A DNA stretch of 64,000 nt. It comes from Thysanoteuthis rhombus. Lineage: Eukaryota > Mollusca > Cephalopoda > Oegopsida > Thysanoteuthidae. The translations under genes and the position numbers were made by a program. Location of the stretch: the NCBI GenBank assembly GCA_963457665.1, contig OY735222.1:36253391-36317390 (forward strand), in the 5' to 3' direction. Below, piece after piece: positions 56,655-56,929 of this stretch. The notes below the pieces were generated by a model. It did not search any database. It saw only the letters and a list, made by a program, of their open reading frames with translations, and had not been told where the DNA came from. Numbering within the stretch: the first letter of the stretch is position 1; each line of letters starts with the position of its first letter.

Positions 56655-56929
56655 TCTAGATGGTATTTCTATTAATATTCGGACTATCCTCATCTTGGTT
56701 GTTTTTCATACAACATTTCAGCCGTTACACTCTACGGCCTTCATCAGGTATCATCCGGTAGGTGTGGGGAAGTAACGAACCGAACCCTTTATTTATCCGA
56801 CGGGGTATATTGACCGCACTCTCCTCTTAGCATTAGTAGTATAATTATTGTCTAGGATTGAACCTAGAACCATCAGATTACTTTGCAGTAATTTGTCTGA
56901 TGCTGTAACCGCTATGCTATGTGTCCATG
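56655..56929 (-). repeat. Composite SINE: tRNA head plus hammerhead-like tail
   Basis: On the minus strand the element starts near 56929 with a tRNA-like head. The A box is TAGCATAGCGGT, and the B box GGTTCAATCC is a perfect consensus (56855-56864). A body of about 90 bp follows (with GTTCGGTTCGTTACTTCCCC). Then comes CTGATGA (56747-56741) and a hairpin of A, a bulged G, GCCGT, loop AGAGTGTA, ACGGC, T, then GAAA (56719-56716). It continues ACAACCAAGATGAGGATAGT, with a final tract TCCGAATATTAATAG. The hairpin core has the layout of a hammerhead ribozyme. I cannot confirm stem III or a cleavable site. No open frame is present. Confidence 0.6.

Follow-up and report, generated by a model that had tools for sequence, protein, structure and literature searches.

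A tRNA-Headed SINE With a Penelope-Type Insertion Signature in the Cephalopod Thysanoteuthis rhombus

Introduction

Short interspersed elements (SINEs) are generally taken to depend on long interspersed elements (LINEs), and the tRNA-derived SINEs of cephalopods are generally taken as LINE-dependent as well. The octopus OK/OR SINEs and the Ceph-SINEs, which we take to be tRNA-derived SINEs of cephalopods, have a tRNA-like head and many copies, and so does the element described here. It was found in a 64,000-nucleotide stretch of DNA from Thysanoteuthis rhombus (assembly GCA_963457665.1, contig OY735222.1, positions 36,253,391 to 36,317,390 of the forward strand), which is referred to below as the window. 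The element is about 0.3 kb long and joins a tRNA-like head to a 3' part with a hammerhead-like motif, and many of its insertions carry the traits of Penelope-like elements (PLEs). In all probability, PLE machinery mobilises this SINE.

The closest parallels to its insertions are found among PLEs. Penelope inserts have been described with an adjoining inverted pLTR that completes the insert, with head-to-head palindromes and with one 9-bp target-site duplication (PMC3846280, in part; sources cited in this way are represented by portions of their text). One inverted pLTR may carry a 31-bp tail at its 3' end, the pLTR takes in the first 12 amino acids of the open reading frame (ORF), or 22 with the tail, and a host gene has been mobilised by a PLE in trans (PMC3846280, in part). 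A purified PLE protein, unlike R2 and LINE-1, cleaves both strands and extends them; it favours AT-rich DNA and initiates at two neighbouring internal sites, which match and explain the 30-40 bp tail; its RNA has a hammerhead at the start of the ORF (PMC11167929). The hammerheads of PLEs are described as minimal, usually without helix III (PMC6155905, in part).

A second group of relatives is made up of small hammerhead-bearing elements. SINE-like elements with hammerheads are already known in the SMalpha and Sjalpha retroposons of schistosomes, which are likewise short and SINE-like (PMC8490949, in part), and the tRNA-headed SINE with a hammerhead, put forward in a first-pass annotation of the window as an unusual hybrid, is in that respect not unprecedented. 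SMalpha differs in that its type I ribozyme is proven, acts fast and makes loop contacts (PMC6155905, in part), and a PLE insertion signature is not mentioned for either retroposon in the portions of PMC8490949 drawn on here. The metazoan non-LTR retrozymes are also small, non-coding, hammerhead-bearing and suspected of using PLE machinery (PMC7229834, in part); they differ in being tandem repeats with circular RNA. Retrozymes have been called a possible new type of SINE (PMC8969392, in part). In cephalopods, a 2026 repeat annotation of Octopus vulgaris counts SINEs and PLEs, and the words hammerhead, ribozyme and retrozyme do not occur in the available portions of its text (PMC13282606), while 235 hammerhead-1 hits are given for the giant squid genome (PMC6962438, in part). 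A tRNA-headed SINE with a PLE insertion signature was not found in the literature searched, which covered few subscription journals.

A Single Family With Head and Hairpin

The genome searched comprises 2.73 Gb in 514 contigs, and two sets of loci were drawn from it. Set 1 consists of 39 near-full copies in addition to the window copy, from the best 40 of 2757 first-look candidates scored with the whole element, and set 2 of 39 loci found by the last 148 nt of one copy, from the best 40 of 1835 candidates scored. The two sets do not overlap by an 80-nt flank test; both were chosen by best match, and the proportions given below may not hold for other or older copies. Positions on the element are prefixed with q.

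The 39 further copies of set 1 lie on many contigs and are 91-94% identical over almost the whole query. Head, body and hairpin are contiguous in all 39 when aligned, in a set selected by whole-element match. For a single copy, the default would be that two unrelated repeats had become neighbours by chance in the window; the same junction in 39/39 further copies refutes this explanation, which retains practically no probability, and confirms that head and hairpin are parts of one repeat family. In set 2, all 39 loci match the element's 3' part and end at q307-311, 12 reach the start of the head (q8 or less), and the other 27 are cut at q19-q159, a variable 5' truncation; free-standing relatives of the 3' part are possible among these 27. 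Main copies differ from the consensus by a mean of 2.9% (48 copy pairs, both sets). The family has the traits of a tRNA-derived SINE: it is short and non-coding, with many dispersed copies, target-site duplications and 5' truncation.

Insertions as Head-to-Head Dimers

In 32/39 set 1 copies, BLAST against the consensus finds a piece of the element in inverted orientation directly beside the head; 29 of these 32 pieces start from one or other of the two 3' ends that the element itself has and are truncated at the 5' side. The usual insert accordingly consists of a 3' end and inverted truncated copy, followed by the head, full copy and 3' end of the main copy. The 3' ends fall into two classes, a short one at about q277 and a long one at about q310, 33 nt apart; main copies end at q272-282 or q308-311 in 38/39 cases, with one at q292. 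Where both outer ends could be classified (28/39), one was short and the other long in 28/28 (Fisher p 3e-8), with 16 inserts pairing a short main copy with a long partner, 12 showing the reverse and none having two ends alike. The same rule appears in set 2, whose anchors are long by selection: 22/39 loci have a partner that extends past q260, and 22/22 of these partners are short.

The whole insert lies between direct repeats of 9 bp or more in 21/39 copies, as against 1/1482 mismatched-flank controls, and the head-to-head joins are near-flush, the gap being -4 to +8 in 27 of 29 that were measured. Partners within one insert share derived letters at 44/234, compared with 939/10716 for strangers, which would be expected of two cDNAs copied from closely related RNA. 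The flanks of 28 inserts are 73% AT, modestly above the 66% of the window. An inverted partner, a tail of 30-40 nt on one end only and one duplication around the whole insert together form a PLE-type insertion.

Around 28 insertions (L010-L046), the flanking sequence leans towards A beside the long end and towards T beside the short end, which hints that the long and short ends are tied to defined target strands.

Such structures have to be weighed against those made by LINEs, in which case the element would be an ordinary LINE-mobilised SINE and its head-to-head dimers would be twin-priming products, as in LINE-1. LINE insertions also show 5' truncation, duplications and near-flush junctions, and the tRNA head and the duplications of 9-15 bp would be equally at home there. 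In twin priming, the inversion comes from an internal stretch of the same RNA that lies upstream, which is not the arrangement seen here, where 29/32 inverted pieces start at the element's own 3' ends and overlap the main copy. To our knowledge, LINEs do not alternate between two start sites 33 nt apart, and LINE mobilisation is considered unlikely.

A retrozyme would offer another route, with the hammerhead cutting an oligomeric RNA and RNA circles serving as the transposition intermediate. The size of about 275-311 nt and the hammerhead-like motif are retrozyme traits, and PLEs have been named a strong candidate for retrozyme mobilisation (PMC7229834, in part). Metazoan retrozymes are tandem repeats (PMC7229834, in part), whereas inverted dimers predominate here and a partial tandem was seen only in L009 of the 39 copies in set 1 and in L082 of the 39 loci in set 2. 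Furthermore, retrozyme hammerheads are described as canonical and the minimal kind is assigned to PLEs, and a term search found neither SINE nor RNA polymerase III in the available text of PMC7229834. A retrozyme origin therefore appears improbable.

The Copy in the Window

The main copy in the window occupies approximately 56664..56931 on the minus strand, slightly off the 56655-56929 assigned in the first pass. It corresponds to consensus positions 1-275 with a short 3' end and matches the consensus of 39 copies at 94%. The tRNA-like head, B box, CTGATGA, 5-bp hairpin with 8-nt loop and GAAA that had been read in one orientation are all present, and every feature of the element lies on the minus strand. 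In the element's own direction, the head is followed by a body of about 100 nt, the CTGATGA-hairpin-GAAA motif and about 50 nt past the hairpin. No ORF of at least 120 amino acids overlaps the element (about 0.3 kb), which is not itself an autonomous PLE with a reverse transcriptase and, usually, a GIY-YIG domain.

The head extends over 56849..56931 (-), with an approximate lower bound, and contains an A box, TAGCATAGCGG, at 56919-56909 (-) and a B box, GGTTCAATCC, at 56864-56855 (-), both read in the sequence. By these boxes it is classed as tRNA-like. The Rfam tRNA model scores 19.9 bits in the window copy and gives 11 matches at E<=1 in 20 copies scanned, two of them above the gathering score of 29 (29.4 and 29.3); ARAGORN found no tRNA gene in the window. 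The head presumably resembles tRNA-Lys. Rfam microRNA models also scored in window stretches and copies, and a microRNA identity was rejected, as these matches look like mere long inverted repeats.

Two side observations concern the region around the head. Copies L020, L040 and L061 have about 100 nt in common upstream of it, and in L061 the part of the sequence inspected begins with a B-box-like AATCCTAG, which suggests, from the letters of these copies, a composite of two tRNA-headed repeats. In addition, a short palindrome-like GTCCA..TGGA occurs at the 5' end of the head in 9/39 copies (L013, L021, L025, L027, L028, L040, L041, L043 and L047) and recalls the palindromes reported for Penelope.

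At the 5' end of the window's main copy, an inverted head piece (consensus 5-79, 85% match) abuts it on the opposite strand at 56930..56994 (+), forming a head-to-head palindrome. Shorter inverted head pieces also occur in copies L027 and L035. The head-only inverted piece in the window is read as self-priming at the head.

The 3' end region, 56664..56709 (-), is open from an ATG (MKNNQDED...). Other copies add a 33-nt tail that takes the consensus to about q310, and in the consensus the 3' part reads open from this ATG for 27 codons to the long end. We infer that this frame is a PLE-like ORF start, such as pLTRs include.

A Minimal Hammerhead-Like Motif

Within the window copy, CTGATGA lies at 56747-56741 (-) and is followed by GCCGT, the 8-nt loop AGAGTGTA and ACGGC, with GAAA at 56719-56716 (-) on the 3' side of this stem II hairpin. 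The hammerhead-like motif as a whole spans 56708..56751 (-) and reads AUAC (stem I), CUGAUGA, stem II hairpin, GAAAUGUU^ and GUAU (stem I), which places the predicted cleavage point between 56712 and 56711 (-). The consensus is AUAC-CUGAUGA-A-GGCCGU-AGAGUGCA-ACGGCC-GAAA-CG-UU^GUAU, with a stem I of 4 bp, a stem II of 6 bp and no helix III. An alternative with a long stem III (GUUGU/ACAAC) was discarded, as it leaves no UH before stem I, and was replaced by the minimal pairing of GAAA-CG-UU^GUAU with AUAC.

In both the consensus and the window copy, 13/13 core positions (C3 U4 G5 A6 N7 G8 A9, G12 A13 A14 A15.1, U16.1 H17) agree with published hammerhead criteria (PMC3088659, in part), and the core is intact in 35/39 set 1 copies as well as in the window copy. 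Among the core-adjacent pairs, G1.1-C2.1 and A15.1-U16.1 are possible, and 10.1-11.1 is possible only if the one extra A is skipped in the consensus. The sequence around the motif (91 nt) has a better fold than 197/200 shuffles (z -2.18); for the element taken whole, the fold is unremarkable (z -0.44). A descriptor drawn up post hoc (CUGANGA, stem II of at least 4 bp, GAAA, UH, stem I of at least 4 bp) has 1 match in the window, on the minus strand, versus 2 matches in 150 two-strand Markov windows. The consensus fits the published "minimal" hammerhead of PLEs, and the motif is regarded as a PLE-type hammerhead of putative activity.

A substantial possibility, put at somewhat short of an even chance, is that the hammerhead likeness is due to chance or decay and that the 3' part does no more than give a reverse transcriptase a structure to recognise, which is compatible with PLE mobilisation. 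One extra A stands between A9 and stem II in the consensus. The Rfam hammerhead models, which the first-pass annotation had looked to for support, gave no match in the whole window at gathering, in two stretches at E<=10 or in 20/39 copies at E<=1; this is a weak test, because PLE hammerheads are minimal and usually lack helix III (PMC6155905, in part). No stem pair has changed on both sides among 24 young copies, so that covariation is absent in that sample, and when folded freely the consensus favours a different junction, the structure with both stems enforced being 1.8 kcal/mol worse with some core bases still paired. Change at core sites is 0.8% versus 3.3%, which may result only from few CpG sites. 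Against chance or decay stand the complete agreement of the core positions noted above and the location of the motif close to an ORF-like start, as in the Anolis PLE, whose ribozyme required protein (PMC11167929). The hammerhead may also be an inherited passenger.

Another stretch of the window, 50576-50640 (+), holds a motif closely resembling that of the element (GGCTGA loop TCAGC, GAAACATTGTAATGACAAC) and is perhaps another, decayed PLE-type hammerhead whose stem II differs in its letters and would still pair. When 345 kb (91 records, some of them duplicates) were scanned with a relaxed version of the motif, 67 matches lay outside the element, and the scan was too unspecific to use. Viral contigs, scanned three times for the motif or the head, gave no match.

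Proposed Mobilisation by Penelope-Like Machinery

The explanation that accounts best for these observations, and in which we place fairly good confidence, is that of a tRNA-headed SINE with a Penelope-like terminus that is mobilised by a PLE protein. A PLE protein is proposed because the SINE shows the same set of traits as PLEs and its 3' part reads open from ATG. Like PLEs such as Pen2a of Adineta vaga and PAc of Anolis, it has an inverted partner, an optional tail of 30-40 nt on one end, a hammerhead-like motif, one duplication around the whole insert, head-to-head palindromes and AT-rich targets. Unlike them, it lacks an ORF for a reverse transcriptase or endonuclease, is only about 0.3 kb long and bears a tRNA-like head upstream of the PLE-like part, and a strict one-short-one-long rule could be counted for it. 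Action in trans is not a new requirement, because a PLE has mobilised a host gene in this way (PMC3846280, in part).

The proposed sequence of events can be outlined as follows. RNA polymerase III would make the RNA from the tRNA-like promoter. Its 3' part would offer a minimal hammerhead motif and then a PLE-like reading-frame start holding two reverse-transcription start sites 33 nt apart, and a PLE protein, probably as a dimer, would recognise this part, as the insertion signature suggests. The protein would cut both target strands with a stagger of about 12 bp, and reverse transcription would be primed from each side of the target, one side using the short site and the other the long site. 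Of the two cDNAs, one would usually extend as far as the head and the other stop early; joining the two head to head would leave one target-site duplication flanking the whole dimer. The PLE protein and its dimer, transcription by RNA polymerase III, the order of the steps and the activity of the ribozyme are all putative in this scheme. A broader proposal, which we judge somewhat better than even, is that there is a class of SINEs dependent on PLEs and not on LINEs, in which the 3' end is a PLE recognition module that has two start sites and each insert records two ordered two-strand priming events, one per site.

The extra A, the negative Rfam scans and the absent covariation weigh against the hammerhead, and several other observations weigh against mobilisation by a PLE. 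The derivation of the 3' part from a PLE is proposed from resemblance. No PLE carrying the element's 3' part was found by the Pfam GIY-YIG, window-scrap and fetched-region searches. The Pfam GIY-YIG search of the genome gave 7 matches, four of which were fetched (L091-L094, 3.9 kb taken); a PLE 5' region matching the element's 3' part was not seen in them, L091 being partly masked, or in L095, a 1-kb piece near another weak match. Similarly, 0/39 of the tail-selected set 2 loci continue past q311 as matching sequence. In vitro, the PLE protein shows no start-site difference between the strands (PMC11167929), and the rule of one end of each class is therefore not explained by that work.

The inserts themselves also include exceptions. 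Both ends could not be called in 11/39 set 1 copies: 7 have no partner detected by BLAST (5 long, 2 short), the partner end lies outside the classes in L027, L042 and L047, and the main end does so in L012. Read by eye, L025 and L041 have very short partners that fit the one-short-one-long rule, and at least L019 and L026 have the appearance of simple insertions, with duplications. A duplication of at least 9 bp is missing in 18/39 copies. The window copy is atypical, as its partner is the head only, and no target-site duplication was found for it.

The first-pass annotation had credited the window with a PLE as a possible partner, and the only counterpart found for it is a GIY-YIG-like scrap at 13266-13475 (-), with the peptide FYVGETARNIGEQILEHL. 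Pfam gave no hit on this scrap at E<=0.1, the rest of the genome holds two weak matches to it, and a role as partner is not supported. The scrap was also the only match to PLE protein patterns in the window and the fetched records. The wider Penelope connection remains likely from the insertion signature, with the partner PLE itself not found in these searches.

SINEs are generally taken to depend on LINEs. If the proposed explanation is true, another retroelement class would be added to those that SINEs can parasitise, and the many SINE copies would provide a natural record of how PLEs integrate, a mechanism that is poorly known. The one-short-one-long rule can be read in many copies and leads to a testable model of PLE integration with two protomers, two start sites and two strands. 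More direct support would also be gained for the suspicion that small hammerhead-bearing elements use PLE machinery (PMC7229834, in part).

Other Features of the Window

Related frames occur at 15115-15627 (-), 47292-47717 (+), 32456-32665 (+) and 9785-10036 (+), two of them in 94% inverted repeats. All four resemble what we take to be the end of a non-LTR reverse transcriptase, and Pfam gave no convincing hit on the three of them that were searched. A 50-bp satellite fills 57966-62861 with about 98 copies at 93% match and begins about 1 kb from the element.
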